Part shown: one piece after another, positions 5,118 through 35,804 of the stretch
How positions within the stretch are numbered: position 1 is the stretch's first letter
Layout: every line of letters starts with the position of its first letter
Assembly (NCBI GenBank): GCA_026992355.1
Contig: JALXAE010000295.1
Coordinates: 1-35,804 of the forward strand
Direction of reading: 5' to 3'
DNA length: 35,804 nt
DNA from: Syntrophobacterales bacterium
Lineage (GTDB): Bacteria > Desulfobacterota > Syntrophobacteria > Syntrophobacterales > Thermodesulforhabdaceae
Translations under genes and position numbers: made by a program
The notes under the pieces: generated by a model
Told to the model about the DNA's origin: nothing
Database searches by the model: none
The model's input: the letters and a program-made list of their open reading frames with translations, nothing else

Positions 5118-5138
5118 TTTGCAACACTCTCTTTTAGT

Positions 5139-16600: not shown

Positions 16601-16790
16601 GCGAAGATTGGCCAGGGTGGAAGAGGAATTAAGATCCGCTGTCGACGAACGAATACGGAGGATGAAAGAGTCACAAAGAGACAGGATAAAGCGTGAATGG
16701 GACTCAAAGAAATCATCAATAGAGAAACGCAGGAACAGTGACATAGTCAGCAAAAGGGTGGCCATTGGAATTATGGAGGTCAAAGCATGA
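13689..16790 (+). CDS. SNF2-family helicase/translocase of a two-gene operon
   Basis: A 1033-aa superfamily-2 motor. Residues 1-60 look like an SH3/KOW-like barrel (KFEVGDIVELKADP). The ATPase core carries DEVGVGKTIEAGL (Walker A, about 128-139), VDEAHHLR (about 242-249), LTATPIQLG (about 273-281), and in the second lobe GCEGLDY...VNYDLPWNPMRIEQRIGRIDRFGQ (about 597-632). A long charged helical C-terminus follows (690-1033). This pattern belongs to RapA/HepA-like SNF2 proteins that move on duplex DNA. GGAG before the ATG supports the start, and its end overlaps the next gene by ATGA, so both are made together. It resembles DISARM DrmD in class but lacks DrmA, DrmB, DrmC and the methyltransferase around it. 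Confidence 0.93.
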   Translation: MKEKNRKFEVGDIVELKADPTRKGPVIEILPEVHGQHRYKVFHGQNNIQEYLENQLVLCTKPSDMVYPKEPIKPEEFMARLNALRLSYPQVDSIYSLHAARIQFIPFQFKPLIRFLRSEEPRLLIADEVGVGKTIEAGLILRELQSRQELKNVLIVCPKALVTKWRAEMRRFDEDFHPLTAETLRYCLKETYLDGAWPSQYSKAIVHLEILRREDYLESQPELNRFGLLDIDPPPEFDLVIVDEAHHLRTPDTNTNKLARFLSNNAEAMLFLTATPIQLGSTNLYTLLNLLRPDRFIDEALFNEMVEPNKYINEAIRSVRTKMPEESWLPNALEALDKAKNTSWGYKILKDDALFMRWYSKIQSSSDLSDEERIEFIRDMEEVNTLSHVMNRTRRRDIGNFTIREPITIQVDFTPEQKKFYESILSFRKEMLLLEYDPIVIRLIMDTLERQAASCLPGLLPLLDTFIRTGKFSPDEVTDIAEEEAEQKLPKVISEKAKALKAMAKSLPETDPKLNELLKIVSDTIADKKGPGKVLVFSYFLHTLSYLQKKLKENGFRVAVVSGKVPDYEREIIRERFRKKKSEKDAIDVLLSSEVGCEGLDYEFCSRLVNYDLPWNPMRIEQRIGRIDRFGQVSEKIQIYNFITPGTVEERIFFRCFDRIGIFKQTIGDMEEILGELTEALTKTALDPSLTPSQAEEKARQLTDNALRKVEEQRRLEEQSTELLGLDELIQEEIGKIEAEGRFVTADDLYQLIDLYLKSRFKNARITVDKKSKIAKLYASKEDKDLFYKDLKKLRRQDRQTKDLSTWINGSSKSLTLTFDQAVALEDRSIPFITPVHPLTKMAIAFWNAAPKELSTHVEVENGDIPEGTYVFGYYLWETIALRGGIRLIPVLWHVEKNAVEWDISVNLNKLLRNARLSSKPVALSQENFEMALHRLDEAIQEKRFSELKKIKEVNDKIVEQRLLSLERHYQRRLARVEEELRSAVDERIRRMKESQRDRIKREWDSKKSSIEKRRNSDIVSKRVAIGIMEVKA

Positions 16791-19700
16791 GCAAGAGGGC
16801 TCCCAAGATGACTGAAGAAGAACTCAGATACTTTGAAAAACTCAAAAAAGAGAGAGCAGGTGCTGCAACATATTTCAAGAAATCGTTTCTGAAGGGAATT
16901 TGGAGGAGTATTACAGAGAAGTACTCTGAGCAGGCACATTTTGTCTATGAACTTCTTCAGAACGCGGACGATGCCAAAGCCACTAAAGCCCGTTTTGTAT
17001 TGTCAGAAAGCGGACTAATTTTCGCTCATAATGGTAAAGTGCATTTTTCAATTACCAATCCTGATTCTGAGAGGGAGGAGAAAGACAGGATTAGGGGAAA
17101 GCTTGGACACATCAATTCCATAACATCAATCGGTAGCAGTTCGAAATCAGCGGATGAAATAGGGAAGTTTGGGATTGGTTTCAAGTCTGTGTTTCAATAT
17201 ACCGACACTCCTCATATCTATGATCCCCCATATACCTTCAAGATAAATGATTATATTGTTCCCCAGTTACTGGAAAAAGACCATCCGCTACGGAGAAAAG
17301 GGGAGACGTTATTCTGGCTCCCTTTTAATTCTGAGAACAAACTTCCTGAGAATGCTTTCAGCGAGACGAGAAATAGACTCCAGAAATTAGAAAATCCATT
17401 GTTGTTTCTTAGAAACTTACGCGAGATTGAATGGAATATTTCGACTGGAGACGAAGGTTTTTATATTAAAGAAAGTGACAAAAAAGGCGACACCTCACAA
17501 ATCAAATTACTGCATATGGTAAACGACTGGGAAAACGAGCAGTCGTTCAAGGTGTTCGAGAAGAAGATAGTACTTACTGAAAACAATAAAGAATTATACA
17601 TTCATATTGCCTTTAAGTTAGATGAAAAAGGCAAGATAGTATATATTGAAAAGCATCCTTGTTACTGCTTTTTCCCCACCAAAGAGCATACGGGTTTACG
17701 CTTTATCATACAAGCTCCCTTTATGCTTACAGACAGTAGAGACCTCCTCAAAGAAGAAGACCCTGTCAATAACAGATTAATTAAGCTTCTTGCCCAGTTC
17801 ATGGTAGAAGTCCTACCTAGACTCAAGGAAGATGGCAAACTAGATATTTCATTACTTAAAGCACTTCCTATATACGAGGAAACAGCGGAGAAGTTCAAGC
17901 CACTGTATGACAGTGTACTCGAAGAATTAAGGAACGGGGCTGAGCTTTTGCCTGCTGAAGATGGCAGTTACGTCGGCTGCACATCGGCTTTATTGGCAAG
18001 GGGTAGAGAGCTAGTGAAGTTATTAAACAGCGAACAACTCTCTCTCCTATTCGAAAAACCAGGTACAAAATGGATTTCTTCTGAGGTTACTGAAAACAGC
18101 GAGTTGTGGGATTATCTCAAGGACAAGTTGGGCATAGAAGTTATAAGGCCCGAAGACATCGTGGAGAGACTCTCCGAAAGTTTCTTAAAAGCTCAAACTG
18201 ATAATTGGCTTGTTGACCTGTATAAATTCCTGCGCAAGAGACGTGACTTGTGGAATAAGTTGAAAAAAAGACCTTTCATTAGACTCTCTGATAATTCACA
18301 TGTTACACCGTTCAACAGTGCTGGAGAACTACAAGCATTTCTGCCAACCGATAACGATTCACCCTATCCTACTGTAAAGAGAACTATTGTAGAAGACAAA
18401 GAAGTGAGAGCGTTTTTGGAAAATCTTGGTTTGCACCCGCCAGATGAAATCGCTGAAATTACAAAATTCATCCTTCCAAAGTACAGAGCTTCTCAAGATA
18501 TCCCAGAAGCCGAAAACCTCGAAGATGTCCGTAAGATAAATAAAACGCTCAAAAAAACCGACGATCACAGCTTCTTAGAGCAGCTAGCTGACACCCCCTT
18601 TTTGGCAGCAGATAACTGTGCAACCGGTAGAACCGAATACAAGAAACCCACTGAGATATATCTCACTCAAGATTTTACGAAAAACAAAGACATTGAAATC
18701 TATTTTGAAGGAAATCCTGATGCTTATCTTCTAAATAGAAGATATAGAGAATTTGATAGTAGCTTTTTTAGAAAGTTAGGATGCTCTGACAGGATCAAAG
18801 TATTCTGCCGCAAACCCAATTGGTCAGGTTACGTCCCCATCGTAGACTACCATTCCCACCATAAAAGGGGAAGAGAGGGTTTCGATCCTGGTTGCAATAT
18901 AGACGGGCTGGAACACGCGCTGAAAAACATTAATCTAGATAAGGCCCATATAATCTGGAATCTTCTACTGAAGTACTGGAAAAGCATTAAAGGGGAAGTC
19001 GAATTCAGTACGAGGCAGGATTATGTTGACTCTGAAATAGAAAACCAGCTTTCAACTATGGGTAGGCTTGTGCGAGAACACCGGTGGTTGCCTGACAAAG
19101 ACGGAAAATTCCATCACAGATTTGAAATCCGACTGGAGGATCTCCATGAAAAACTGGAGAAAAACAGCCTAGAAGCACAAATGGTAGCAAGGAATATTGG
19201 CCTCAAGACAGATATCGATGAGGAAGTCGTAAATAAATTGCCTTCCAACGTAAGAAGGATACTCGAGGTTTTTAAACCATTTGGACATTTGCTTGATGAG
19301 GAAGAGATCCTCGAAGAAATGAAGTCCCTGTTGGCAGATAAAGACAAGGCCTACAGAAAGACAGTGAAAGAAGAACCAGCTGATAGTTTTAGCTACCAAG
19401 AAGAGTTCAGAAAGGCATTTTCTAAACGACAGATAGGATCCTCGCGTGAGCATATTCCCCCTAGTGAACTCCCCAACCCTGAGAGAAGAATTGCGGGAAT
19501 TAAAGAGGAAATTAACATTAGCAAAACAAATGAACCACTGGTCATTGAGAGATTCAAGAGAGTACCTATAAAAAAATGGGAGCAAAAGAATTTTGAAGCA
19601 AGGACTTTTCTGAAAGAACAATATGGCGGCAGGTGTCAAATATGCAATTACTCTTTTGATAAGAGAGATGGAGAGCCCTATTTTGAAGGTGTTTACTTAG

Positions 19701-19969
19701 TCTCAAGAACAAAGGCAAGATGGATAGATAGACCGGGGAACATCCTCTGTTTATGCGCCAATTGCTGCGCAAAATTCACACATGGAACTGTGGAAGCACC
19801 TGATATTTTGGACCAGATAGAAAACATACGAATAGATCACGCAGAAGAAGATGAGTTATCTTTGAAAATAATACTTTGCGGAAAAGAAGAGACCATTAAA
19901 TTCACGAAGAGACATATGCTAGATCTACATGCTATAATTCAATCTGAAAACCAAGAAAGAGAAGCCTAA
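16787..19969 (+). CDS. GHKL (Hsp90/sacsin-like) ATPase with a degenerate HNH-like zinc domain
   Basis: A 1060-aa protein. The N-terminus holds a GHKL ATP-binding fold: N-box YELLQNADDAKA (about 53-64), GRIGSSSK-like lid sequence SITSIGSSSKSADEIGK (about 110-126) and the G-box FGIGFKSVF (about 127-135). This is the sacsin/Hsp90 type. The middle 600 residues are unrecognised. Residues about 947-1000 form a zinc module with CQIC and CANCC that aligns with the HNH scheme. The catalytic His pair is replaced (FEGVYLV where EAHHI is expected, NCC where NCH is expected), so it is probably structural or DNA-binding. Start overlaps the helicase gene by four bases. Together they should form an ATP-driven sensor or effector; I know no named system with exactly this pair. 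Confidence 0.88.
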   Translation: MSKRAPKMTEEELRYFEKLKKERAGAATYFKKSFLKGIWRSITEKYSEQAHFVYELLQNADDAKATKARFVLSESGLIFAHNGKVHFSITNPDSEREEKDRIRGKLGHINSITSIGSSSKSADEIGKFGIGFKSVFQYTDTPHIYDPPYTFKINDYIVPQLLEKDHPLRRKGETLFWLPFNSENKLPENAFSETRNRLQKLENPLLFLRNLREIEWNISTGDEGFYIKESDKKGDTSQIKLLHMVNDWENEQSFKVFEKKIVLTENNKELYIHIAFKLDEKGKIVYIEKHPCYCFFPTKEHTGLRFIIQAPFMLTDSRDLLKEEDPVNNRLIKLLAQFMVEVLPRLKEDGKLDISLLKALPIYEETAEKFKPLYDSVLEELRNGAELLPAEDGSYVGCTSALLARGRELVKLLNSEQLSLLFEKPGTKWISSEVTENSELWDYLKDKLGIEVIRPEDIVERLSESFLKAQTDNWLVDLYKFLRKRRDLWNKLKKRPFIRLSDNSHVTPFNSAGELQAFLPTDNDSPYPTVKRTIVEDKEVRAFLENLGLHPPDEIAEITKFILPKYRASQDIPEAENLEDVRKINKTLKKTDDHSFLEQLADTPFLAADNCATGRTEYKKPTEIYLTQDFTKNKDIEIYFEGNPDAYLLNRRYREFDSSFFRKLGCSDRIKVFCRKPNWSGYVPIVDYHSHHKRGREGFDPGCNIDGLEHALKNINLDKAHIIWNLLLKYWKSIKGEVEFSTRQDYVDSEIENQLSTMGRLVREHRWLPDKDGKFHHRFEIRLEDLHEKLEKNSLEAQMVARNIGLKTDIDEEVVNKLPSNVRRILEVFKPFGHLLDEEEILEEMKSLLADKDKAYRKTVKEEPADSFSYQEEFRKAFSKRQIGSSREHIPPSELPNPERRIAGIKEEINISKTNEPLVIERFKRVPIKKWEQKNFEARTFLKEQYGGRCQICNYSFDKRDGEPYFEGVYLVSRTKARWIDRPGNILCLCANCCAKFTHGTVEAPDILDQIENIRIDHAEEDELSLKIILCGKEETIKFTKRHMLDLHAIIQSENQEREA

Positions 19970-19984
19970 TTTGAGTTACCAATT

Positions 19985-21028
19985 TTACTCCCAAACCCTG
20001 AAAGCATGCACCCTTCCCTTAACCCTCGCTCTCTCTGCCTTCACAAGCTTCAGCTCCGTCATCCTCTTCATGTATAAGGAATAGGTCCTGCTCGCTACAG
20101 GTTTCCAGTTGTTGGCCTCGCACCTCTGGAGATAGGCCTGATAAAGCTCGGGAGACGAAATCCCCGGGTTCTCTTCGATAATGCTGTACAGCAACCTGTG
20201 GTGCTCGGTGAGCCTTTTCAGCTCATACGTGCGCCGCAGCCCACCTGTGTCATTGTAGCCCTTCTCTATGTGCTCTGGCATAATCCTCTCACAGCCTTCG
20301 GACTGGGCATAAGAAGCCGCGTTCCTCAGCGTCTGGATAGCAACCCTCGCATCTCCCCCAGCAATCTCAGCCACGAGCTCAAGCGTTCTTTTGTCCCATG
20401 CTCTGGGGTGCAGCGCCCCCGCAGCCCTCTGGGTGAGTATCTCCACCAGCTCATCAACTGTGTAGGGCCTGAACTCAAGGGTGTAGGGGTTCAACCTCGA
20501 GCGCACCCGGTCCTCCAGAGCAAGTATGGGGTACCTGCTCTCACTTATCAGAATAAGCCCGACGTTCCCGACGTTTGAGAGATTGTATATCATGGTGTTT
20601 CTCTCCTTGAGGGGCACGACATCGATCTCATCGAGTATGATTATGAATGGCCTGTCTTTCACGAGCCGCTCAAATTGGACGAGTTTAACCCTCTTGTCCC
20701 TCGCATCTCCAAAACCCCTCCTCAGCTCGCCGAGTATGTACTCCAGCACAGCATAAAAGGTGTTGTGCTTCCAGCAGTTCACATACACGCCGGGGATGCC
20801 TTTCTCCCTGTTCAGCTCCCTGAGCATGTGGCTTGCAATAGTGGTCTTCCCGGTCCCTGGACATCCGTAGAGCCACACTGAACGTGGCTTTCTCCCTGAA
20901 AACACAGGGGCAAGACAGGTACTGAGCTCGTTCACATGCGTATTTCTGGCAGAAATTATATGCGGTATATGGGTCTCGCTCAAAATAGCGTCATCGAGAA
21001 TCAGGCCCGGGTCGTTTTGTTTATACAT
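19985..21028 (-). CDS. cdc6: Orc1/Cdc6-type replication initiator
   Basis: A 347-aa AAA+ ATPase of the archaeal Orc1/Cdc6 family, which binds origins and recruits the MCM helicase. It shows Walker A GCPGTGKTT (55-63), Walker B FIIILDEID (about 127-135), sensor 1 LILISESRYP, the arginine-bearing EDRVRSRL, sensor 2 in GGDARVAIQTLRNA, and a C-terminal winged helix (about 270-347). It is a little shorter than chromosomal copies (380-420 aa), as on plasmids. The ATG at 21028 (MYKQNDPG) is chosen because a TATA-like stretch lies 25-30 bp before it and no SD is present; the frame extends 41 codons further but that part runs into the divergent promoter. A bacterial host would not supply archaeal MCM, making the presence of this gene beside a bacterial tRNA notable. 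Confidence 0.9.
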   Translation of the reverse strand: MYKQNDPGLILDDAILSETHIPHIISARNTHVNELSTCLAPVFSGRKPRSVWLYGCPGTGKTTIASHMLRELNREKGIPGVYVNCWKHNTFYAVLEYILGELRRGFGDARDKRVKLVQFERLVKDRPFIIILDEIDVVPLKERNTMIYNLSNVGNVGLILISESRYPILALEDRVRSRLNPYTLEFRPYTVDELVEILTQRAAGALHPRAWDKRTLELVAEIAGGDARVAIQTLRNAASYAQSEGCERIMPEHIEKGYNDTGGLRRTYELKRLTEHHRLLYSIIEENPGISSPELYQAYLQRCEANNWKPVASRTYSLYMKRMTELKLVKAERARVKGRVHAFRVWE

Positions 21029-21160
21029 ATTTAGCGATAAGATATACGGGCTTAAAAAACCATATACGTGGGATTTGCGGTCTTTGCGGATAATGTCTAC
21101 GAAGAGAAACAAGGCGGAAGATCCCTCGAAATTTATAAGCCTCCGAAACAATTCAATACC
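21029..21160. promoter_or_regulatory. Divergent leaderless promoters, possible replication origin
   Basis: This 132-bp gap separates two start codons facing away from each other. On the minus strand a T-run TTTTTTAAG (about 21050-21058) is spaced for the cdc6 ATG at 21028. On the plus strand TTTATAAG (21132-21139) is centred about 25 bp before the ATG at 21161. A pair of ATATACG-G/T-G units flanks the minus box (21041-21048 and 21062-21069). Archaeal origins usually lie beside cdc6, so this is the place to look for one, but I see no canonical origin-recognition box. Confidence 0.5.
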
Positions 21161-21337
21161 ATGAGGGAACTAGAAAAGAGGCTTGTTCGCGGTCTCTTAT
21201 ATGCCGTGGCAGCGCTCTCGGCAGGTCTGCTGGTCTACACGACTTTATTGCACATAGATCCCCCGAATGCCGTGCCCATAGTTTTCTACTTCGCACTTTT
21301 CTCGATATGCCTTTATGTGCATGAACGTTATTTCTGA
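21161..21337 (+). CDS. Small two-helix membrane protein
   Basis: A 58-aa protein starting MRELEKRLVRGLLYAVAAL with two hydrophobic segments (about 10-28 and 36-52) joined by a short polar turn (LHIDPPNA). It would sit in the membrane as a hairpin. The start is supported by TTTATAAG 25 bp upstream and by the hydrophobic domain beginning soon after it; the longer frame from 21068 overlaps promoter sequence. It is divergent from cdc6. Function unknown; a partner for the membrane-anchored Cas4-like proteins next door is possible. Confidence 0.6.
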   Translation: MRELEKRLVRGLLYAVAALSAGLLVYTTLLHIDPPNAVPIVFYFALFSICLYVHERYF

Positions 21338-21464
21338 GGGGATCGCTCGTGTCAAGAGAAACGAAAACGGAGCGAGGCGGCCGCAGACTCTGCACCCGGG
21401 GAGGGACGGGAGATAAACGGCGGGCGGCATGGCCTTCCTCAGGGATTCCCTCGCCACCCATGGC

Positions 21465-21992
21465 CTATCCAATCCTTGCAGGGCAGTTATCCTTGAAAGA
21501 GCAAGCCTCGCACTTCGCCCGGCTCTCATGATTTCTCTCAACAGGCCCTTCGGCTTGGATATCCATATCCCTCATCTCCTGCATGGTTTCCATCAACCTT
21601 TCCCGGAGCCTTTCATCAAACTCAATCCTGAACTGTTTCCTGTCTCCATACACAAGGTAACCGTAGGGGACCCGGGTACTGTATTTTTCTTCGACAAGGA
21701 GACAGTAAGCTGCAAGCTGGAGCACATGGTTCTCAAAGGGTGTGTCTGCAAGGGTGTTCTTTATCTCCACGGGGATAACATCACCGTTTTGCCTCACTAT
21801 GTAATCCGGCTTCCCGACAAGGCGATATCTGGAAGAAAACAGCGGCTTTTCCACTTTTTCAGGGTTCAGGTCGGAATACATGACATCTCCGTCCACAATC
21901 CCATGTGCCTGCACAGTCCGTGATGCCGCCTTCGACATCATCCATGCGACGACAATCAAAGCGATTCCCATTATGATGACAACGGTTATCAT
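21465..21992 (-). CDS. Membrane-anchored Cas4-like nuclease, C-terminal chain
   Basis: A 175-aa protein starting MITVVIIMGIALIVVAW, a transmembrane helix, followed by the core of a Cas4/RecB-like PD-(D/E)XK nuclease: GKPDYIV (D63), VEIKNT (E76, K78), QLAAY (Q92-x3-Y96), and three cysteines CEACSFKDNC (C161, C164, C170) that normally help hold a 4Fe-4S cluster. The fourth cysteine and the G-x3-H motif are missing here but present in the chain encoded just upstream. The ATG at 21992 overlaps the stop of that gene (ATGA), so translation is coupled. The expected activity is exonuclease/end resection on DNA at the membrane. No cas1 or cas2 is nearby, so a CRISPR role is unlikely. Confidence 0.8.
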   Translation of the reverse strand: MITVVIIMGIALIVVAWMMSKAASRTVQAHGIVDGDVMYSDLNPEKVEKPLFSSRYRLVGKPDYIVRQNGDVIPVEIKNTLADTPFENHVLQLAAYCLLVEEKYSTRVPYGYLVYGDRKQFRIEFDERLRERLMETMQEMRDMDIQAEGPVERNHESRAKCEACSFKDNCPARIG

Positions 21993-22258
21993 GCCAACCA
22001 CATCACAACTCCTATAAGCGCAAGAAATATCATCAAAAGCCCGATCCATAGCAGAATTCTGGAAGTCCTTTTCATCCTCCCCGCCTTCTCAAGCCCATCT
22101 CCAATCTCCACGTGTCTCTTCCTCCCAGCGAGAATCAAGGGGCTTTCTGGGGTGTAACCTCTCTTTTGCAAAAACCACGCTACTGAACAGAACTTGTATT
22201 GTCCGATTTCAGACGCTTTTATTATTCCCTGCTTTCCTCTCCGTGCATCGTTGCTCAT
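21989..22258 (-). CDS. Membrane-anchored Cas4-like nuclease, N-terminal chain
   Basis: An 89-aa protein carrying the N-terminal Cas4 motifs: IKASEIGQYKFCSVAWFL (cluster cysteine C24) and AGRKRHVEIGD (G45-x3-H49), then a transmembrane helix (about 66-88) that ends at the stop codon. The stop overlaps the start of the next gene, which begins with another transmembrane helix and continues the Cas4 fold. In a one-piece protein these would be two helices of a membrane hairpin inserted in the nuclease; here the chain is cut in that hairpin. A TATA-like box about 27 bp before the ATG and no SD suggest a leaderless start. A fission, rather than a frameshift error, is favoured by the tidy ATGA overlap. 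Confidence 0.75.
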   Translation of the reverse strand: MSNDARRGKQGIIKASEIGQYKFCSVAWFLQKRGYTPESPLILAGRKRHVEIGDGLEKAGRMKRTSRILLWIGLLMIFLALIGVVMWLA

Positions 22259-22280
22259 TATGGCACCCGCGGTGTTCCCA

Positions 22281-22290
22281 ATGTTTAATA
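22281..22290 (-). promoter_or_regulatory. TATA-like box of the split Cas4-like operon
   Basis: TATTAAACAT on the minus strand centred about 27 bp before the ATG at 22258, with no Shine-Dalgarno in between. Confidence 0.45.
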
Positions 22291-22327
22291 CTTAACGTAC
22301 CAATTTTAATCTTTGTCAGGTTCCCTC

Positions 22328-24250
22328 TCAAACCCTGACCCCCCAAACCTCATCAAACCCCGCGTCCAGGCACTTCTTCATGTTGTAGGCCACATTGCTC
22401 TTCCCTGTCTCGATTTCCACAGCCACTTTCCTCCCGTCCCTGAACAAAGCCAGGTCAACTGTTCTGCCCCCGCCTATTGGATACTCCTCAACAACGCGCC
22501 AGCCCTCAGACCTATACTTCTCTGCGAGCCTTTTCTTCGCAAGCTCATGCTCCACGCCGCCGCCTCTGTGCGACTTTCCAGGCTGTACACCCATGCTTTT
22601 CAGGGCATCCCTGGCCTTCTCCGTCAATTCAAGTACCTTGAGCCTTGCCCTGCTGGCCTTGACATCCCTCACAGTCACATAGCCCCTGGAAATGAGACCC
22701 TCCTTCGCCTTGTTTCCCTGATAAACATTGAGCCCCAACCTCTCGTACCGCTCTGTGACAGGGGAAACCGGGTATTCATGGATGTCCCGAAGCAAAATCT
22801 CCTCGTTTTTCGTCAAGGTCACGGGACCTGATTCGGACATTTTCAGGACATTTTCAGGTCTTTTCAGGACATGGCCATATACCTTCTCCTTACCAAATGC
22901 CTTAAACCCCGCCCTCTCCATTCGCTCCGCTATGTCCTCATCCGTGACCTGACCTTTCCTGACCTTGACCAGCGGGAACTTCACAAGAAACGGCTCGAAC
23001 CAGCGGCCCTGCAGCTTGACCATCGCAAAGCCTGTCTCCAGCTTCCCAAGGTATCTGGCCTGCTTCGCCTCGATGAGCAAGGAATCAGCGATCATTGAGA
23101 TGTCGCTCCTGTGCTTCAGGTTCATCGCGATGGTGGTGTATGTGTTCCCGAGGGCCGGCTTGCTTATCAGGCTCGGGTGCTGGTCAATGAGAACCACTGC
23201 CTCGCCGAGCTCCCTGATCTCCCTCAAAATGATATCTGTGATGGCTTCCTCGCCCGAGGCTTCCTGCTTCTTCCTCAAAAGTATGTGGTGGGCTTCCTCA
23301 ATGATGAGGGCATGCCTAAACTCCTCCCTGCCCTGCTGACCAAGCCTGTAGTGGTGTATCCATAAAAGCAAGCTCTCGATGAGAAAGGTCTTGTCCGAAT
23401 TGGTGAGGCTGTCCAATTCCAGAACAACATTTCTCTCAAGGAGGCCTGCCAGATTCACAGCATCCCTGCGGTTGATTACACGCGACACCTCGCCGAAGCA
23501 AAGCACCCCCACGGCCCTGAGAGCAGACTCCATCCACGAAGCTTCCCTTCCCCGGGCTTTATATCTCTCCAGCCATTCCCTGACATCCATGAAGGTCGGC
23601 CACTCATGCTTGTTCCCGGAGTAAACGCCGAACTCCCTGTACACGCTGTCCATGGCCTTTTGCAGAAGATAGGCAACGCCCTCGCCAAGGAAATACGCAT
23701 GGCAGAGTATCTCTATCAGCTTTTTCAGCCACACCGCTGGCAGCGTTCCGTCAGGTGGTATGAGGGGGTTGAACGAGAATGGAGACACTGGCCTGCCAAC
23801 AGTGAAAACCAGTATCTCCCTGTCCGGTACCAAAGCGAGCAAATCCCTGTAGTTCCTCTTCCAGTCAAAAACAAGAAAGGGCTTCCCCCTGGCGAGGAGA
23901 TTCAGTACAATCAGAAAAGCGGTGTTCGTCTTGCCGGAACCCGAGCGGCCAAAGACCCCGACGTGCTGGACCCACTCCCTTTCTCTCAAACCGAACCAGC
24001 CGAAGATCTGCCTGCCGTAGACCACGAGCCCCAAAGGGTATTCTCCCGAAGCTATGTCCTCAGCAGGCGGTTCGAGCAGGACCTCCTTTTCCTCAAATGT
24101 TGCCTTAAGCCTCCGCGCAAGGCTTATGCGCAAGGAATTTTCGATGGCTTTTCTGCCGCCGCTGTCAGAAAGGATGTACTCAGCCCACAGCCTGGCCATG
24201 TCCATACCGGACACGGGTTTGAGCTTCCTGAAAACATCCTCGATTCTCAT
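22328..24250 (-). CDS. HerA-like DNA-pumping ATPase with winged helix and C-terminal nuclease-like domain
   Basis: A 640-aa FtsK/HerA-class ATPase. Walker A GRSGSGKTN (101-109), a DWKRNYRDLL segment (about 124-133), Walker B HALIIEEAHHILL (about 308-320) and the arginine/Gln sensor region VLIDQHPS are visible. After the motor comes a winged-helix region (about 450-545, ending in LELTEKARDALKSMG), then a restriction-endonuclease-like end (about 560-640) with TVDLALFRDG and VAVEIETGKSN. HerA proteins form hexamers that pump double-stranded DNA and work with nucleases such as NurA; here the Cas4-like chains are neighbours on the same strand. The ATG has GGGGAGAGG directly before it. It shares its C-terminal module with the ATPase at 27.7-29.7 kb. 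A role in transfer, end processing or segregation of the element is inferred. Confidence 0.88.
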   Translation of the reverse strand: MRIEDVFRKLKPVSGMDMARLWAEYILSDSGGRKAIENSLRISLARRLKATFEEKEVLLEPPAEDIASGEYPLGLVVYGRQIFGWFGLREREWVQHVGVFGRSGSGKTNTAFLIVLNLLARGKPFLVFDWKRNYRDLLALVPDREILVFTVGRPVSPFSFNPLIPPDGTLPAVWLKKLIEILCHAYFLGEGVAYLLQKAMDSVYREFGVYSGNKHEWPTFMDVREWLERYKARGREASWMESALRAVGVLCFGEVSRVINRRDAVNLAGLLERNVVLELDSLTNSDKTFLIESLLLWIHHYRLGQQGREEFRHALIIEEAHHILLRKKQEASGEEAITDIILREIRELGEAVVLIDQHPSLISKPALGNTYTTIAMNLKHRSDISMIADSLLIEAKQARYLGKLETGFAMVKLQGRWFEPFLVKFPLVKVRKGQVTDEDIAERMERAGFKAFGKEKVYGHVLKRPENVLKMSESGPVTLTKNEEILLRDIHEYPVSPVTERYERLGLNVYQGNKAKEGLISRGYVTVRDVKASRARLKVLELTEKARDALKSMGVQPGKSHRGGGVEHELAKKRLAEKYRSEGWRVVEEYPIGGGRTVDLALFRDGRKVAVEIETGKSNVAYNMKKCLDAGFDEVWGVRV

Positions 24251-26489: not shown

Positions 26490-26642
26490 ATGGAAAAGAC
26501 AACAAGATTGCTTTCCTCCCAAAGAGGCCTGAGCCTCTTCAGATATACCATAAGAAGTAGGTCTAATGAGAGAGGAGTACAGGATGGGAAACAAAGGAAA
26601 GAAAAATGGCGGGTACCAAAGAAGGGAATGCCCTATCCTTAG
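26490..26642 (+). CDS. Possible short leader frame (doubtful)
   Basis: A 50-codon frame beginning MEKTTRLLSSQRGLSLF with a good SD (AAAGGAG, 8 nt before the ATG). It contains a perfect 7-bp hairpin AAGAGGC-CTGA-GCCTCTT (26522-26539) and overlaps the next gene in another frame for 59 bp. The protein is basic and has no family. It may be a leader peptide with a regulatory hairpin rather than a functional protein, or chance. Confidence 0.3.
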   Translation: MEKTTRLLSSQRGLSLFRYTIRSRSNERGVQDGKQRKEKWRVPKKGMPYP

Positions 26643-26787
26643 AAAGAGGGTGTTTGACACCATGGGCAAAAAGGAGATGGTGTTCATCTGCAAGGGATGC
26701 AAGCTTAAATGCCCAATCCATGTTGTCGAATTCAAGGAAATCTACATCGAATGTAAAGTATGCCCGCATAAACTCAAAATAGCATAG
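26584..26787 (+). CDS. Small Cys-rich zinc protein
   Basis: A 67-aa protein with six cysteines: C16, C36, C39, C43, C57 and C60 (ECPIL, FICKGCKLKC, ECKVC), and a Lys-rich N-terminus (MGNKGKKNGGYQRR). One or two zinc sites are likely. GGAG about 9 nt before the ATG at 26584 supports this start; an ATG six codons earlier is less well placed. It follows the regulator on the same strand and is closed by an intrinsic terminator, so it belongs to the regulator's transcript. The motif order CP...(I/V)CKxC recalls the Cys modules at 30.2 and 30.5 kb, but similarity is slight. Confidence 0.65.
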   Translation: MGNKGKKNGGYQRRECPILRKRVFDTMGKKEMVFICKGCKLKCPIHVVEFKEIYIECKVCPHKLKIA

Positions 26788-26833
26788 ATTTTCAGCTTTA
26801 ATAGTTCAAGAGGCCAGAGGCCTAAGAGTCCAG

Positions 26834-26868
26834 AGCCCCGTTTCTTTAAGGAACGGGGCTTTTTTATT
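26834..26868 (+). terminator. Intrinsic terminator
   Basis: AGCCCCGTT (26834-26842) pairs perfectly with AACGGGGCT (26852-26860) around a 9-nt loop and is followed directly by TTTTTTATT. A short hairpin AGGCC-AGA-GGCCT precedes it at 26811-26823. It separates the regulator unit from the ATPase operon that starts at 26958. Confidence 0.85.
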
Positions 26869-29710: not shown

Positions 29711-30334
29711 ATGCCAGATCCGGATACCTTTTTACAGCTATCAGCAGGGCACCATCAAAACACCGTGAATAAACCATCGCAGGGAGACATGCTTGACAGT
29801 CTTGAGCGCTCGATTGAATCGAACCCGCATCTTCCACATGTTCCGCCGCACGAGCCAAGGGAGTCAAGGATTCTGAGCGCTGTGGAAAACCACACAATGG
29901 GATACAACCCACAGTCTCCACTTGCTCCGAATCCAGTGGTCCCTGACCCTGTTTCCATTGATCCGAACCCATCGCCTCCGGGAGCCACGAAGTACAACCC
30001 ATTCCAGGAAAAGGTTTTCGTCGATCCCGCGGTGGCTGATGACAGGTTCAGACACGGTTCCTTCCCATCCCCAAAGGTCGAGGGCTACGCATGGAAGGAG
30101 CAAAGGATTTTCTACAGGGAACCGCCGGTCCCAAAGCCAAGGTTGGGGAGCACCCCGAAGATGAGGTTGTCGGACGACAAAAGCATGACATACTGCCCGA
30201 AGAGAAAAGAGCATGTGAAGATAGAAAAGGTCTGCAAGAAATGTCCGGAGTATGACCCGAACCTTGGCATCTACGACAACTGCAAGCTGAAAAAGAAGCA
30301 GGCAAACAAGCTTGCAAAAGCATCCAGAAAGTGA
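29711..30334 (+). CDS. Proline-rich protein with C-terminal Cys module
   Basis: A 207-aa protein. Residues 1-150 are rich in Pro, Asn and His and look unstructured (HLPHVPPHEPRESR; NPSPPGATKYNPFQEK). The last 55 residues form a Cys module: TYCPKRKEHV, VCKKCPEYDPN, GIYDNCKLKKKQANKL. That makes C-x(n)-CxxC...C, likely one zinc site, with a Lys-rich end. The same module makes up most of the next protein. AAGGAGGA precedes the ATG at good distance. It lies 26 bp after the ATPase gene in the same operon. The disordered arm plus zinc tip suggests a tether or adaptor, for example between the ATPase and DNA; this is inference. Confidence 0.75.
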   Translation: MPDPDTFLQLSAGHHQNTVNKPSQGDMLDSLERSIESNPHLPHVPPHEPRESRILSAVENHTMGYNPQSPLAPNPVVPDPVSIDPNPSPPGATKYNPFQEKVFVDPAVADDRFRHGSFPSPKVEGYAWKEQRIFYREPPVPKPRLGSTPKMRLSDDKSMTYCPKRKEHVKIEKVCKKCPEYDPNLGIYDNCKLKKKQANKLAKASRK

Positions 30335-30349
30335 TGGAGAGGTCGGAAG

Positions 30350-30574
30350 ATGAGTAGCCCGAGAAACACGTCAAAAAGGCCCATGAACATCCATCCGGGT
30401 ATGCTGAGGAGAAATATATCAGTCAGGGAGCCCGGGGACGTCTACTGCCCGGAAAGAGCTGATTATGTGGACTATAAGTCGGTCTGCAAGAAGTGCCCTG
30501 AATTTGACGAAGACCTCGTCATTTACTACAATTGCAGGCTGAAAAAGAAGGAGTCAAACAAGCTTTCCGCATAA
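30350..30574 (+). CDS. Small protein with the same Cys module
   Basis: A 74-aa protein with a basic N-terminus (MSSPRNTSKRPMNIHPGML) and the module VYCPERADYV, VCKKCPEFDED, IYYNCRLKKKESNKL. It is a paralogue of the C-terminus of the preceding gene: the spacing of the four cysteines and the L-x-IY-x-NC-x-LKKK-x-x-NKL end are shared. Start 15 bp after the upstream stop, SD GGAGAGG. Tandem duplication inside the operon is the likely origin. Function unknown. Confidence 0.75.
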   Translation: MSSPRNTSKRPMNIHPGMLRRNISVREPGDVYCPERADYVDYKSVCKKCPEFDEDLVIYYNCRLKKKESNKLSA

Positions 30575-30599
30575 TCAGCACAGGGCAGGAGAGGAGCTT

Positions 30600-31271
30600 A
30601 TGGGTGGAAAAAAGGAGGAGAACCTTCAGCCAACATGGAAACCGACAAAATTTGCATGGGCGATGATCTTTTGTACTGCATTGGTGATGCTCTTTCTGGT
30701 CGTGTACTTCATAAACAGATACCGACCGGAGTGGTTACAGGGGAGCCATAAGCAGAGTAATATCCAAGTGGTCCGGGAAACTCCTGGAACGCATTATCCA
30801 GAGCCATCAAAGGAAGAAAACGAGAAATTAGAACTTCTGTCAAACCTTGCGAACGTGCCATTTGTGGTTGAGAAGTCTTTTATCGTTGAAAAATCTGATG
30901 AGAATGAAAGTGGTGACAGAAAATATATCAAACTTTTTCTTAAATCAAAAACAGCAGACTGCAGGGTGATTCTCACAATTGATGCATGGGATGAAATAGA
31001 CATGGGTAGAATTCAATATATGCAATGGAAGGATGAGCGTATCAAATCTTTTTTGAAAAGGTTAAAGGGATGTTGCATTTATTTTGCGAGAATTTCTATT
31101 AAACATATAAATCCGGAGCATGATGATTGTATGTGCAAAGCCATGTTTGAAGGCGCGTCTCCTTCTTTGGAGAGGGAAAACGGAAAGCTTATTGGCTATG
31201 CAAGCGGCCAAGCTGATGATTTCACATGGGTTTATCTAAAACCGATTGAGATTGAAAACCCAAAAAAATGA
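30600..31271 (+). CDS. Single-pass membrane protein of unknown function
   Basis: A 223-aa protein: a short Lys-rich cytoplasmic start, a transmembrane helix (about 19-40, WAMIFCTALVMLFLVVYFI), a polar linker, and a soluble domain (about 75-223) with alternating strand-like segments (YIKLFLKSKTADCRVILTI; DFTWVYLKPIEIE) and three cysteines. Not a recognised family. The strong positive charge before the helix suggests the large domain faces outward. AGGAGAGGAG precedes the ATG. It is the last gene of the 26.96-31.27 kb operon and the only membrane protein there, so it could anchor the machine to the envelope. Confidence 0.7.
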   Translation: MGGKKEENLQPTWKPTKFAWAMIFCTALVMLFLVVYFINRYRPEWLQGSHKQSNIQVVRETPGTHYPEPSKEENEKLELLSNLANVPFVVEKSFIVEKSDENESGDRKYIKLFLKSKTADCRVILTIDAWDEIDMGRIQYMQWKDERIKSFLKRLKGCCIYFARISIKHINPEHDDCMCKAMFEGASPSLERENGKLIGYASGQADDFTWVYLKPIEIENPKK

Positions 31272-31313: not shown

Positions 31314-32510
31314 ATGCCGCCCGTAGCGATACCACTACAAGACAGGATAGGTTTCTGCATGAAGGGCGGCATCTATGCCTACAGAGAAAAGTGCCCGATC
31401 TGCGGCAGTTCTTTCAAAGACAACGGCCGAAACGCCTTAGTTTGTCCCAACCATCCGAATCAGAAAGCGACGAGATTTCAGGTCAAATTCGGCAAAATCT
31501 GCCACAGATTCAAAAGCTACGAAGCCGCGAGCAGGTTTCTCACAGGCCTGAGATACAAAACAGATGAGGGCTCTTTCGATGAAAGGGATTACAGGAAGGA
31601 CCTCCCCTTAAGCTTCCAGAACCTCGCCGAGAAATGGCTCAGGGTAAAAAAAGAGAGCGTCAGGCCGAAAACATACCGAAACCTCAGGAACGATATCGGC
31701 AAGGCAATAGCGTGCTGGGGCCACAGGAACATAAAGGAGATCGGGTACGCGGAGATAGAGGATTTCATCCTTGAGCAGAATGTCTCGCAAAAAACAAGGC
31801 ACAACATCTGCTCGTGCCTTCACGATTTCTGGACATGGCTCCTCAAGCGGAGGGTCATAAAGCTCCACGAGTTCCCGGAGTTCCCTGAGATAAAATACGA
31901 GCTCAGGTACCGGAGGGTCATAGACAAGGAAACCCAGGAAAGGGTTCTTGATGAGATATGGGGAATAAGCCACAAGGTTAATCCGAAGATATGGCTCGGC
32001 ATCAAGTGGCTCTGCACGTACATATCAATACGGCCGGGGGAGCTGATAAAGATCAACGAGGAGCACATAGACCTGAAAAACGGGTACCTCTTCATCCCCA
32101 CCCCGAAGGAAAAGAAAGCCAAAAATGTTCCGCTGTTAGAGGAAGACATAAAAATACTGGAAGCGCTGCCGAGGGGATTCCCAAAAATGCCATTTTTCAG
32201 GCACGAAAAGGGGAACGGAGCCGCAAAGCCGGGGAGCAGGTTTGGCAAGGACTATCTCTACAAATGGTGGAAAAGGGCCTGCAAAAACCTGGGAATCGAG
32301 GGGGTCGATCTCTACGGCGGAACAAGGCACAGCTCGGCAATGGCCCTGAGAAAATACAGAACGCCTGAGGAAATCAAGCGCGCGACAATGCACTCCACGA
32401 ACAAGGCATTCGAGAGATACTTCCAAATTGAGGGAGATGAGCTGAGGAAGGTCTACTCGGATTCAAAGCCCTCAAGATCTTCTGGGAAGATATTCAAGAT
32501 CCCCGGATAA
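31314..32510 (+). CDS. Tyrosine recombinase with N-terminal zinc ribbon, next to tRNA-Leu
   Basis: A 398-aa integrase. An N-terminal zinc ribbon (KCPICG...VCPNHP, about 26-50) and the RFLTGLRYKTDEG segment are followed by a SAM-like core-binding domain (about 95-195) and a catalytic domain with Arg I in YISIRPGELI (about 240), HSSA in YGGTRHSSAMAL (about 338-349, giving R-H) and Tyr in AFERYFQIEG (about 374). This is the form I know from deltaproteobacterial genomic islands. It is transcribed toward the tRNA and ends about 115 bp from its 3' end, the classic position of an integrase at its own attachment site. Arginine codons are mostly AGG/AGA and many isoleucines are ATA, unlike the host genes to the right. 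A start at 31359 is also possible. Confidence 0.9.
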   Translation: MPPVAIPLQDRIGFCMKGGIYAYREKCPICGSSFKDNGRNALVCPNHPNQKATRFQVKFGKICHRFKSYEAASRFLTGLRYKTDEGSFDERDYRKDLPLSFQNLAEKWLRVKKESVRPKTYRNLRNDIGKAIACWGHRNIKEIGYAEIEDFILEQNVSQKTRHNICSCLHDFWTWLLKRRVIKLHEFPEFPEIKYELRYRRVIDKETQERVLDEIWGISHKVNPKIWLGIKWLCTYISIRPGELIKINEEHIDLKNGYLFIPTPKEKKAKNVPLLEEDIKILEALPRGFPKMPFFRHEKGNGAAKPGSRFGKDYLYKWWKRACKNLGIEGVDLYGGTRHSSAMALRKYRTPEEIKRATMHSTNKAFERYFQIEGDELRKVYSDSKPSRSSGKIFKIPG

Positions 32511-32616: not shown

Positions 32617-32624
32617 CAAAAAAA

Positions 32625-32711
32625 TGGTGCCGAAGGCCGGACTCGAACCGGCACGGGTCTCCCCACCACCCCCTCAAGATGGCGTGTCTACCAGATTCCA
32701 CCACTTCGGCA
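32625..32711 (-). tRNA. tRNA-Leu (anticodon GAG), CCA encoded; likely attachment site
   Basis: The minus strand gives an 87-nt leucine tRNA with a long variable arm. The acceptor stem TGCCGAA/TTCGGCA is perfect, the T arm contains GGTTCGAGTCC, the anticodon stem CCATC/GGTGG encloses TTGAGGG (anticodon GAG), and CCA is encoded at 32627-32625. Its 3' end faces the integrase, so the element was probably inserted into the 3' part of this gene, which remained whole. The expected second copy of the 3' end is not seen in the window. Confidence 0.93.
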
Positions 32712-32718
32712 CTCAAAT

Positions 32719-33195
32719 TTATTTTTTATGTGGTTCGGCTGCCTTGCCACCAGCCGATGCGTTCGCGCCGGCATGAACCGGAGCACTGTTTGTAGCTTTT
32801 GTTGCCGGCGATGAAGCCTGTTTTGCCTGCTGGTTTTCCTTTACTTCCCGGCCTTGAGCAGCCGGCGCTGTTTTTCCCGGTTCAGTGGCAGCCTGTTTCT
32901 GCTGCGTTTGCTGAACCGGTGCACTCTGGGTTGCCTTTGTTTTTTTCATGATGGACGTTGTTCCCGGCTTCGTTGAAAAATAGGCCAGGAGCAAACAGGT
33001 CATCATGAAAACCGTTGCAACGCCAATTGTTAACTTGTTAAAAAAGGTGTTGCCACCAGTGGAACCAAACAGAGTCTGGGTGGATGTACCACCAAAAGCT
33101 GCCCCGATATCAGCACCTTTTCCCGTCTGCAAAAGAACTATCAGGATCAAAAAGAAACAGACAATAACGTGTATTATTAAAATAGCACTAATCAT
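32719..33195 (-). CDS. secG: Preprotein translocase subunit SecG
   Basis: SecG is the small accessory subunit of the bacterial SecYEG channel and assists SecA-driven export. The 158-aa protein has two transmembrane helices (about 2-22 and 55-74) linked by the family loop LQTGKGADIGAAFGGTSTQTLFG (pattern QxGKGAxxGAxFGG). The C-terminus is unusually long: about 80 residues rich in Ala, Gln, Lys and Thr (QQTQQKQAATEPG), low-complexity and probably disordered. GAGGG precedes the ATG. It ends 7 bp before the tRNA-Leu gene and follows tpiA by 16 bp, so it belongs to the gap-pgk-tpiA operon. SecG is restricted to bacteria and fixes the domain of the host segment. Confidence 0.95.
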   Translation of the reverse strand: MISAILIIHVIVCFFLILIVLLQTGKGADIGAAFGGTSTQTLFGSTGGNTFFNKLTIGVATVFMMTCLLLAYFSTKPGTTSIMKKTKATQSAPVQQTQQKQAATEPGKTAPAAQGREVKENQQAKQASSPATKATNSAPVHAGANASAGGKAAEPHKK

Positions 33196-33211
33196 AAAAA
33201 AATCAACCCTC

Positions 33212-33973
33212 TTAAGCCTCGAATCGGACTATTCGCAAGAATGAATCGACTTCCAGACTTGCACCCCCTACCAGCGCACCATCAATATCATTTTCACTCA
33301 TCAACGAATCGGCATTATTCGGTTTTACACTTCCACCATACAAAATTCGAATTTCGTTTGCAACGCTTTTATTTGTCAACATTGCCAGGTGCTCTCTTAT
33401 AAAAGCGTGTACCTCCTGCGCCTGCTGCGGACTTGCCGTTTTACCGGTCCCGATAGCCCATACAGGTTCGTAAGCTATCACCACCTTGGCCACGTCCACG
33501 GAATCCAGGCCATCGAGTCCGCCGTCTATTTGGGACTTTATTACTTCGAACGTTTTTCCGGCCTCACGCTCTTCGAGCCTTTCTCCCACGCAGAAGATGG
33601 GTCTTATACCAACTTTTATCAAGGCTTTCAACTTTTTATTTATATCTTCGTTTTTTTCTCCGAAATATTGTCTGCGCTCCGAATGCCCGACAATTGTATA
33701 CGAACATCCGACGTCTTTCAACATCACAGGAGAAATTTCCCCCGTGTACGCGCCTTTTTCTTCCCAGAAGCAATTTTGAGCCGACAGAGAAAGCCACGAG
33801 GGACTCACAAGATCCTTTAAGGGATAAAGTGCCGTAAACGGTGGCGCAATAACAACTTCGCGATCTTCCAGGGTATCAATTTTTTCGGTTAGTCTTTTTA
33901 CAAATTCCACTGCTTCATCGACCGTTTTATACATCTTCCAGTTTGCGGCAATACAAGCAATCCTTGTTGACAT
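33212..33973 (-). CDS. tpiA: Triose-phosphate isomerase
   Basis: TpiA interconverts dihydroxyacetone phosphate and glyceraldehyde 3-phosphate in glycolysis and gluconeogenesis. The 253-aa barrel enzyme shows AANWKMYK (catalytic Lys about 13), the catalytic-His motif VGHSERR (about 97-103), the catalytic-Glu and flexible-loop region AYEPVWAIGTGKTA (about 168-181) and the phosphate-binding YGGSVKPNNA. The ATG at 33973 is preceded by GGAGGAGG; an extension of ten codons upstream has no support. It starts 17 bp after the end of pgk and is co-transcribed with it. It is of the bacterial full-length type, not the shorter archaeal form (about 225 aa). Confidence 0.97.
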   Translation of the reverse strand: MSTRIACIAANWKMYKTVDEAVEFVKRLTEKIDTLEDREVVIAPPFTALYPLKDLVSPSWLSLSAQNCFWEEKGAYTGEISPVMLKDVGCSYTIVGHSERRQYFGEKNEDINKKLKALIKVGIRPIFCVGERLEEREAGKTFEVIKSQIDGGLDGLDSVDVAKVVIAYEPVWAIGTGKTASPQQAQEVHAFIREHLAMLTNKSVANEIRILYGGSVKPNNADSLMSENDIDGALVGGASLEVDSFLRIVRFEA

Positions 33974-33990
33974 GGTTTCCTCCTCCGCCT

Positions 33991-35178
33991 TTATTTGCTG
34001 CAATTCTCAAGAGCCTCGAGCGCCGGCAACTTCTTCCCTTCGAGCAGTTTCAAGAAGGCACCGCCTCCCGTGGAAATGTAAGAGACTTTATCTTCAACTC
34101 CGGCGTGTTTCAAAGCAGCCGCAGTGTCCCCACCGCCCACCACCGTAAGTGAATCAAGATTCGCCAGGCACCTTGCTATCCCGACGGTGCCGCGATCAAA
34201 CGGACTGGTCTCAAAGGCTCCAAGTGGCCCATTCCAGATAATCGTAGCACATTCTTTAAGCTCATCCGAGTACTTTTCAACAGTTCCGGGACCCACATCC
34301 ACGATCTGCCATTCTTCCGGTACATTGTGAATGTCTACCTCTTTACATTCGGCACCCGTCTCCAGCCGTCGGGCAACGACCACATCCGTGGGCAAAAACA
34401 GGGAAACACCCCTTTTCTCAGCTTCCCTGATCAGTTTGCCGGCGGTATCGACCATATCTTCTTCAACCAGAGACTTACCCACGTTGTATCCCTGGCTGAC
34501 CAGAAACGTATTTGCCATGGCTCCACCAACAAAAAGCTTGTCAACTTTTTGAATCAAATTCTGCAACGCTCCCAGCTTGCTCGAAATCTTGACGCCTCCC
34601 ACGATAACACCCAGTGGATGCCTGGGAGATTCGAGGGCCTTTTCGTAGTAATGAAGCTCATTTTTTATGAGAAACCCCGCGCCACATTCCTCCACAAAAT
34701 CGGTAATGGCGTAAACGGACGCATTTTTTCTATGACAGACAGCGAAAGCATCATTTATGTACACATCTTCCAGTGCGGCCAGTTTCCTGGCAAATTCAGG
34801 CTCATTGTCCGTTTCTTCTTTATGGAAACGCAAATTTTCCAGCATAATAACGTCTCCGGGTTTCATGGCCGCCACCATTCTGGCAACTTCGGGACCAATA
34901 CAATCTGGAGCAAGCTTAACGTCTTTTTTTAACAATTCTTCCAATCTTCTTGCCACGGGTTTCATGCTGAACTTCGGGTTTCTCTGCCCTTTGGGTCTGC
35001 CGAGGTGCGATGCCAGTATCACGGACGCTCCTTTTTGAAGAGCGAACTCGATTGTGGGCAACGCAGCCCTGATCCTGTTATCGTCGGTAATATTTTGATC
35101 CTCATCCAGGGGTACGTTGAAATCCACCCTGATAAACAGCCTTTTCCCCGAAACATCAATTTCGTCTATATATCGCAT
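33991..35178 (-). CDS. pgk: Phosphoglycerate kinase
   Basis: Pgk transfers phosphate from 1,3-bisphosphoglycerate to ADP, making ATP. The 395-aa protein has the N-terminal substrate motif RVDFNVPLD (about 17-25), SHLGRPKG (about 57-64), the interdomain VGGAMANTFL, the nucleotide-binding NGPLGAFE (about 315-322) and the C-terminal VGGGDTAAAL (about 353-362). Length is normal. GGGAGGGAG lies a few bases before the ATG. It is the middle gene of a gap-pgk-tpiA-secG row on the minus strand, a bacterial arrangement common in Desulfobacterota and others. Confidence 0.97.
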   Translation of the reverse strand: MRYIDEIDVSGKRLFIRVDFNVPLDEDQNITDDNRIRAALPTIEFALQKGASVILASHLGRPKGQRNPKFSMKPVARRLEELLKKDVKLAPDCIGPEVARMVAAMKPGDVIMLENLRFHKEETDNEPEFARKLAALEDVYINDAFAVCHRKNASVYAITDFVEECGAGFLIKNELHYYEKALESPRHPLGVIVGGVKISSKLGALQNLIQKVDKLFVGGAMANTFLVSQGYNVGKSLVEEDMVDTAGKLIREAEKRGVSLFLPTDVVVARRLETGAECKEVDIHNVPEEWQIVDVGPGTVEKYSDELKECATIIWNGPLGAFETSPFDRGTVGIARCLANLDSLTVVGGGDTAAALKHAGVEDKVSYISTGGGAFLKLLEGKKLPALEALENCSK

Positions 35179-35509
35179 AGCACTCCCTCCCTTAAACCTC
35201 AGATAAACGCTTTACCTCTGCCTGCCTTTTTAAACTACCCTCGCCACCCACCGAACCTGTGTGGCACGAATCTGGCAAGTCCTTCTTAAAGGCAACCGGA
35301 AAAAACGAACATCGATGCGGAAAATTCCTGTGCCCCCGAGTGTTCAAAAAGACCCGGCAGCGAATTCTTCTGATCCGGACCTGCAAGGAGCAGGTCTCGG
35401 AAACGTTCCATGATCAGAATTATGGCTCTCGCTTTCGCGAACGAGCCTACAGCCCCGCTCGCTTAACATCCGGGAAAGGTTGCAGGGTACTAATGCTTTC
35501 CACCCTGCA
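35179..35509. other. gap-pgk spacer with hairpin
   Basis: There is no gene in these 331 bp. The perfect 7-bp hairpin GACCTGC-AAGGA-GCAGGTC at 35378-35396 lies about 115 bp after the gap stop; it is not followed by a clear T-run on the minus strand, so whether it ends or tunes transcription between gap and pgk is open. Large gap-pgk spacers often allow different expression of the two genes. Confidence 0.5.
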
Positions 35510-35804
35510 TCAAAAATGCTTGGCCATCAACAGCGCAAGGTCCGCGAGCCTGTTAGAATAACCGTACTCGTTATCGTACCAGGAAAGTACTTTTACCAGC
35601 CTTTTATCGACAACGGAAGTCAATGCGGCATCAACAATCGACGAATACGGACTGTGATTATAATCAACGGAAACGAGAGGTTCTGTGGAATAGTAAAGGA
35701 TTCCCTTGAGGCGTGTTTCAGAAGCTTCTTTCAAGGCAGCGTTAATTTCCTCTTCGGTAACATCCTTGTCCACCTGGCAAACGAAATCCACCAGGGATAC
35801 GTTC
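35510..35804 (-). CDS. gap: Glyceraldehyde-3-phosphate dehydrogenase, C-terminal part (runs off the window)
   Basis: The last 97 codons of the NAD(P)-dependent enzyme that makes 1,3-bisphosphoglycerate. Recognisable are DFVCQVDKDVTEEEINAALK, LKGILYYSTEPLVSVDYNH (substrate/interface loop) and the terminal VKVLSWYDNEYGYSNRLADL, a strong family signature containing WYDNE. The catalytic cysteine (SCTTN) and Rossmann domain lie to the right of the window. The bacterial type I enzyme is clearly indicated; archaeal GAPDH lacks this WYDNEYGYS end. Confidence 0.95.
   Translation of the reverse strand, partial: NVSLVDFVCQVDKDVTEEEINAALKEASETRLKGILYYSTEPLVSVDYNHSPYSSIVDAALTSVVDKRLVKVLSWYDNEYGYSNRLADLALLMAKHF

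Follow-up and report, generated by a model that had tools for sequence, protein, structure and literature searches.

A duplicated Cys4 module without recognised relatives in the integrase operon of a predicted tRNA-Leu integrative element

The operon and its ATPase

The DNA analysed here, referred to as the window, is a stretch of 35,804 nucleotides (positions 1 to 35,804, forward strand) of contig JALXAE010000295.1, from an assembly attributed to a Syntrophobacterales bacterium (GCA_026992355.1). Towards its right end, genes for a coiled-coil-like protein, an ATPase, the proteins P1 and P2, a protein with one transmembrane helix and a tyrosine integrase follow one another on the same strand (Table 1). 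The gaps between them are 0, 26, 15, 25 and 42 bp, and SD-like sites are present. No convincing same-strand terminator was found between 26958 and 32510, and the genes are likely to be co-transcribed. The original prediction had placed two copies of a VCKKCPE module within the operon. This arrangement is borne out: the run is compact and the ATPase gene lies directly 5' of P1.

Table 1. Features of the window discussed in the text
Feature	Position	Strand	Remarks
Defence-type genes	8443-10086, 13689-19969, 981-2537	+, +, -	OLD-like, DrmD-like helicase, TmtA/Sacsin-like, type I methyltransferase
SIR2-like protein and class II prokaryotic Argonaute	4071-7061	-	adjoining
Orc1/Cdc6-like AAA+	19985-21151	-	
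Cas4-like nuclease	21465-22049	-	
Second HerA ATPase	22328-24250	-	
Intrinsic-terminator-like hairpin	26832-26862	+	strong, 14 bp; just upstream of operon
Coiled-coil-like protein, 233 aa	26958-27659	+	no family; first operon gene, abuts ATPase start
HerA/TraG-like P-loop ATPase, 674 aa	27660-29684	+	wHTH-like and PD-(D/E)XK-like C-terminal region, residues ~478-672
P1, 207 aa	29711-30334	+	Pro-rich arm, then C-terminal Cys4 module; SD-like GGAGGA upstream
Module copy 1, in P1	30191-30313	+	YCPKRKEHVKIEKVCKKCPEYDPNLGIYDNCKLKKKQANKL
Direct repeat D1, copy 1, 114 nt	30229-30342	+	extends beyond P1 stop codon into leader of next gene
P2, 74 aa	30350-30574	+	~30 residues, then Cys4 module; SD-like GGAGAGG upstream
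Module copy 2, in P2	30440-30565	+	VYCPERADYVDYKSVCKKCPEFDEDLVIYYNCRLKKKESNKL
Direct repeat D1, copy 2, 114 nt	30481-30594	+	74% to copy 1, spacing 252
223-aa protein	30600-31271	+	single N-terminal hydrophobic helix (by inspection); no family
Tyrosine integrase	31314-32510	+	N-terminal zinc-ribbon-like region; family of Desulfobacterota elements
Right att	32623-32650	+	28-bp repeat of tRNA 3' end; second copy on contig C53, 6429-6456 (L011)
tRNA-Leu(GAG)	32625-32710	-	integration site; integrase ends beside its 3' end
Chromosomal end	32711-35804		secG, tpiA, pgk, gap

On sequence criteria the ATPase is a member of the FtsK-HerA superfamily, with Walker A (GTTGSGKT) and Walker B (IIYDLDE) motifs read by eye and a HerA-type core. 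It matches the HerA/terminase-type profiles PHROG 7035 (E 1.8e-7) and PHROG 2666 (E 1.1e-5) as well as the PADLOC HerA profile (E 6e-6), while the Pfam match is below cut-off. The AlphaFold model of the ATPase alone (pLDDT 36) is too poor for a check of the fold. Its C-terminal part resembles a HerA-associated wHTH/PD-(D/E)XK part in a genome of the same phylum (G087, L010), the only genome with such a match, and no relatives were found in plasmids or phages. On contig C48 of G087 (L046, 9883-12729), the neighbours of a HerA-like ATPase are a separate protein of the wHTH/PD-(D/E)XK type and one small Cys protein. A homologous operon was not found in the phylum genomes, viral contigs, plasmids or phages searched.

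HerA-like proteins of arCOG00280 occur in archaeal dark-matter islands, and such ATPases are often found in integrated elements with an integrase (PMC4158269). The ATPase beside P1 resembles them in its HerA/terminase-type matches and in sharing an integrated element with an integrase gene. The second HerA ATPase of the window has a CedD-like match (E 3.5e-24, below cut-off), so that the likeness to CedD (PMC11868833) belongs to this protein and not to the neighbour of P1 and P2. A duplicated Cys4 module beside an FtsK-HerA ATPase is not described in the available parts of either account (PMC4158269, PMC11868833).

The integrative element and its origin

The 28-bp end of the tRNA gene, AATGGTGCCGAAGGCCGGACTCGAACCG, is exactly repeated on contig C53, there without a tRNA gene. 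An integrase beside a tRNA gene and a repeat at the far boundary together identify, at the level of sequence, an integrative element at tRNA-Leu. The last gene of the operon, the integrase, adjoins the att site in the tRNA gene, so that the operon belongs to the machinery end of this mobile element. To the right of its att copy, C53 correlates in tetranucleotide composition with the window at 20-25 kb and 26.5-32.5 kb (r 0.87-0.90), and to the left it resembles the chromosomal end of the window instead (0.68). An hsdS gene is split between the two contigs: C53 ends with hsdR and one part of hsdS, and the window starts with the other part and hsdM. The break is flanked on both sides by a 7-bp duplication, AATGGGA, and by IS21-like terminal sequences; the insertion that splits hsdS is one that we take to be of the IS21 family. 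The termini, the duplication on both sides and the split gene argue that, but for the IS copy, C53 continues directly into the window. The predicted element consists of window positions 1-32650 and C53 (L011 6429-20000, L012), at least 52.5 kb.

The integrase belongs to the same family as that of Desulfofustis glycolicus (L014, 58%), and a Cys-rich N-terminal stretch, CMKGGIYS..CP.C...C, is conserved in several relatives. The ATPase, P1 and P2 were absent from the vicinity of relatives at 15 genome and 9 viral loci; the integrase family loci compared were L014, L015, L016, L019, L021, L025 and L028. As a route to sister operons the integrase relatives were rejected, as the neighbours differ at the loci fetched. 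Pfam, NCBIfam, PHROG and PADLOC scans of C53 and of the larger window ORFs, outside the IS-covered gap, recognised no genes for a relaxase, VirB4, T4SS or pilus; no complete transfer system is thus evident.

The gap-pgk-tpiA-secG-tRNA-Leu arrangement is present twice in the bin, at the chromosomal end of the window and on contig C159 (L013). The C159 copy is the family's own, with a Pgk 64% identical to that of genome G037. The Pgk of the window is 50-53% identical to those of the bin's family and at best 58-60% among 198 phylum genomes. By this comparison the chromosomal end of the window is not from the main organism of the bin, and as its copy of these genes is not that of the bin's family, the contig most likely stems from another bacterium and contaminates the bin.

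The element also carries genes of other kinds. An archaeal-type set (Cdc6, Cas4, HerA) lies inside this bacterial element at 19985-24250, the Orc1/Cdc6-like protein matching Cdc6_lid with E 1.8e-15. Cdc6 is absent from 394 other phylum genomes and was therefore rejected as a route to sister elements. The SIR2-like protein and the Argonaute match PADLOC Aga_SIR2 (E 3e-131) and pAgo_II (E 4e-202), and further defence-type genes are OLD-like, DrmD-like helicase, TmtA/Sacsin-like and type I methyltransferase genes.

A tandemly duplicated Cys4 module

P1 and P2 end in copies of the same module, as had been predicted. The two copies align without gaps, with 25/43 residues identical and 35/43 similar (BLASTP E 2e-17). 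In 2000 shuffles that kept the cysteines in place, the P1-P2 alignment score was never reached (observed 152; shuffle mean 32, maximum 80). Both have one CxxC, four conserved cysteines in the spacing C-x12-C-x2-C-x12-C and no conserved His, and the basic C-terminal stretch NC[KR]LKKKxxNKL is conserved across them. The contrast expected between a copy on a long Pro-rich arm and one almost alone is also seen: the module of P1 is preceded by an arm (residues 1-157; 157 aa, 17% Pro) that is probably disordered, that of P2 by ~30 residues. Both proteins have a pI of 9.2, and the net charge of the module is +10 in P1 and 0 in P2. From the four conserved cysteines alone we infer that the module would bind metal (zinc). 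An AlphaFold model of P2 with P1 (pLDDT 52) was too poor to interpret, and a PDB fold search with the P2 model gave no match.

At the DNA level the modules share 90/123 bases (73%) across 41 aligned codons. They overlap D1, the only long direct repeat that a DNA repeat finder detected in the window, and its extension beyond the stop codon into the next leader is the footprint of a tandem duplication. Such a repeat, passing the stop codon into the next ribosome-binding region, is what simple tandem duplication predicts, and P2 could on that basis be a non-functional by-product that arose when the 3' end of P1 was duplicated in tandem together with its leader. We consider this very unlikely: P2 begins at a start codon of its own behind an SD-like site, there is no frameshift despite a dS of ~0.8, and dN/dS also speaks against it. 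Between the copies dN is 0.26 and dS 0.82 (41 codons, only 22 synonymous sites), and the resulting dN/dS of ~0.31 indicates that both copies are kept under selection, at least on average. P1 and P2, as judged from these comparisons, are a paralogous pair that arose by tandem partial duplication and has been under purifying selection on average.

Neither protein had a family match at a meaningful level in Pfam, NCBIfam, PHROGs or PDB. The sole PHROG match, to PHROG 4501, had an E of 0.2, and this family was rejected as a parent because 0/56 class genomes match. Relatives of the module were absent from 395 phylum genomes searched directly, a result that carries less weight than appears given the probable contaminant origin of the window. 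A module profile found none in 75 further genomes of other classes either (~450 genomes searched directly overall), where a match of E 0.008 over 16 residues was chance-like. In a collection of ~85,000 species genomes, strict patterns gave 276 matches with none confirmed as a relative, although these patterns derive from two sequences only and divergent relatives would escape them. Viral contigs and phage and plasmid records also yielded no relative. A Cys-rich ORF at 26566-26784 was rejected as a third copy, since its score is not significant: 139/2000 Cys-fixed shuffles do as well against P1 and 214/2000 against P2 (hhalign probability 3%).

Likeness to known proteins was limited to short or weak matches. 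The literal octapeptide CKKCPEFD of the module recurred only in unrelated small phage proteins (L050-L060, viral contigs), but their cysteines are placed as ICKKCPEFDKRWRSCKVCKC...CP and the likeness ends within 10-19 residues; the octapeptide in these proteins appears to be a convergent motif, neither a sign of relationship nor diagnostic. The bL32 zinc-ribbon proteins are also small and Cys-rich, but the best profile match (E 0.06) is not significant. Classical zinc ribbons or knuckles have two CxxC (or CxxH) knuckles, whereas the module has one. The lack of both family matches and relatives argues that the module is an orphan, without known relatives, and not a common domain. The check set for the original prediction, whether the module is a widespread domain whose role is unrelated, did not refute it, since no family matched in the profile search. 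What stands is that an apparently orphan Cys4 module, carried by a predicted integrative element, has been duplicated in tandem and both copies conserved.

Possible roles of P1 and P2

Adjacency, likely co-transcription, a constrained duplication and the conserved basic stretch point to docking of P1 and P2 on a common partner, the ATPase or DNA. The reading that we favour, at less than even confidence, is that they are accessory docking proteins of the ATPase, with a metal-stabilised module and a common partner. The two paralogues would serve as accessory proteins in a single DNA-processing operon, located where the integrase lies in a large tRNA-Leu element. The Cys4 module would form a small, metal-stabilised docking fold, and the basic stretch NC[KR]LKKKxxNKL would contact the same partner in both proteins, most likely the adjoining HerA/TraG-like ATPase-nuclease or the DNA close to that enzyme. 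The Pro-rich arm of P1 may tether a further partner, P2 being the untethered subunit. We thus infer a common partner, association with the ATPase and a role in mobilisation or maintenance of the element. Against the proposal speak the uncharged P2 module, the different neighbours of the integrase relatives and the failure of the searches to find a second operon in which ATPase and module are linked; the structure models do not help, nor is a complete transfer system evident. Competition between the tethered and the free copy, as originally suggested, is possible and would be compatible with docking.

The basic character of the proteins can be read differently. Small proteins of pI 9.2 beside an integrase, with a conserved basic stretch and a module charge of +10 in P1, might be DNA-binding regulators of the element, acting in operon autoregulation or excision control through a zinc-stabilised DNA-binding domain. 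We regard this as somewhat unlikely. The net charge of 0 for the P2 module, set against that of P1, weakens a simple DNA-binding reading; P1 and P2 match no HTH, ribbon-helix-helix or known zinc-finger profile, and a long Pro-rich arm is atypical of a phage-type regulator.

The company that the operon keeps suggests a further reading, in which it is anti-phage defence or nuclease cargo made up of a HerA-like ATPase-nuclease and small sensors or adaptors. The element is defence-rich, with type I RM, class II pAgo with SIR2, OLD-like and DrmD-like/TmtA-like genes, and the ATPase matches the HerA defence profile, if weakly. This seems unlikely, as the operon includes the integrase and sits at the integrase end, PADLOC recognised no system around it, and the ATPase gives weak matches only, of a kind expected of any HerA superfamily member.

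Under the docking proposal, a broader reading is that the module founds a new family of metal-binding adaptors for a HerA/TraG-like translocase-nuclease, with tethered and free paralogues serving one partner, in an archaeal-type Cdc6/HerA/Cas4 element within a bacterial chromosome; we think this decidedly improbable. The context, an island rich in defence genes that has archaeal-type Cdc6, HerA and Cas4-like genes and sits in a bacterial tRNA gene, is arguably more interesting than the module itself. Little is known of the accessory proteins that work with element-borne HerA/TraG-like ATPases, and the duplicated Cys4 module may offer a small, expressible handle on the recruitment or regulation of such a pump.
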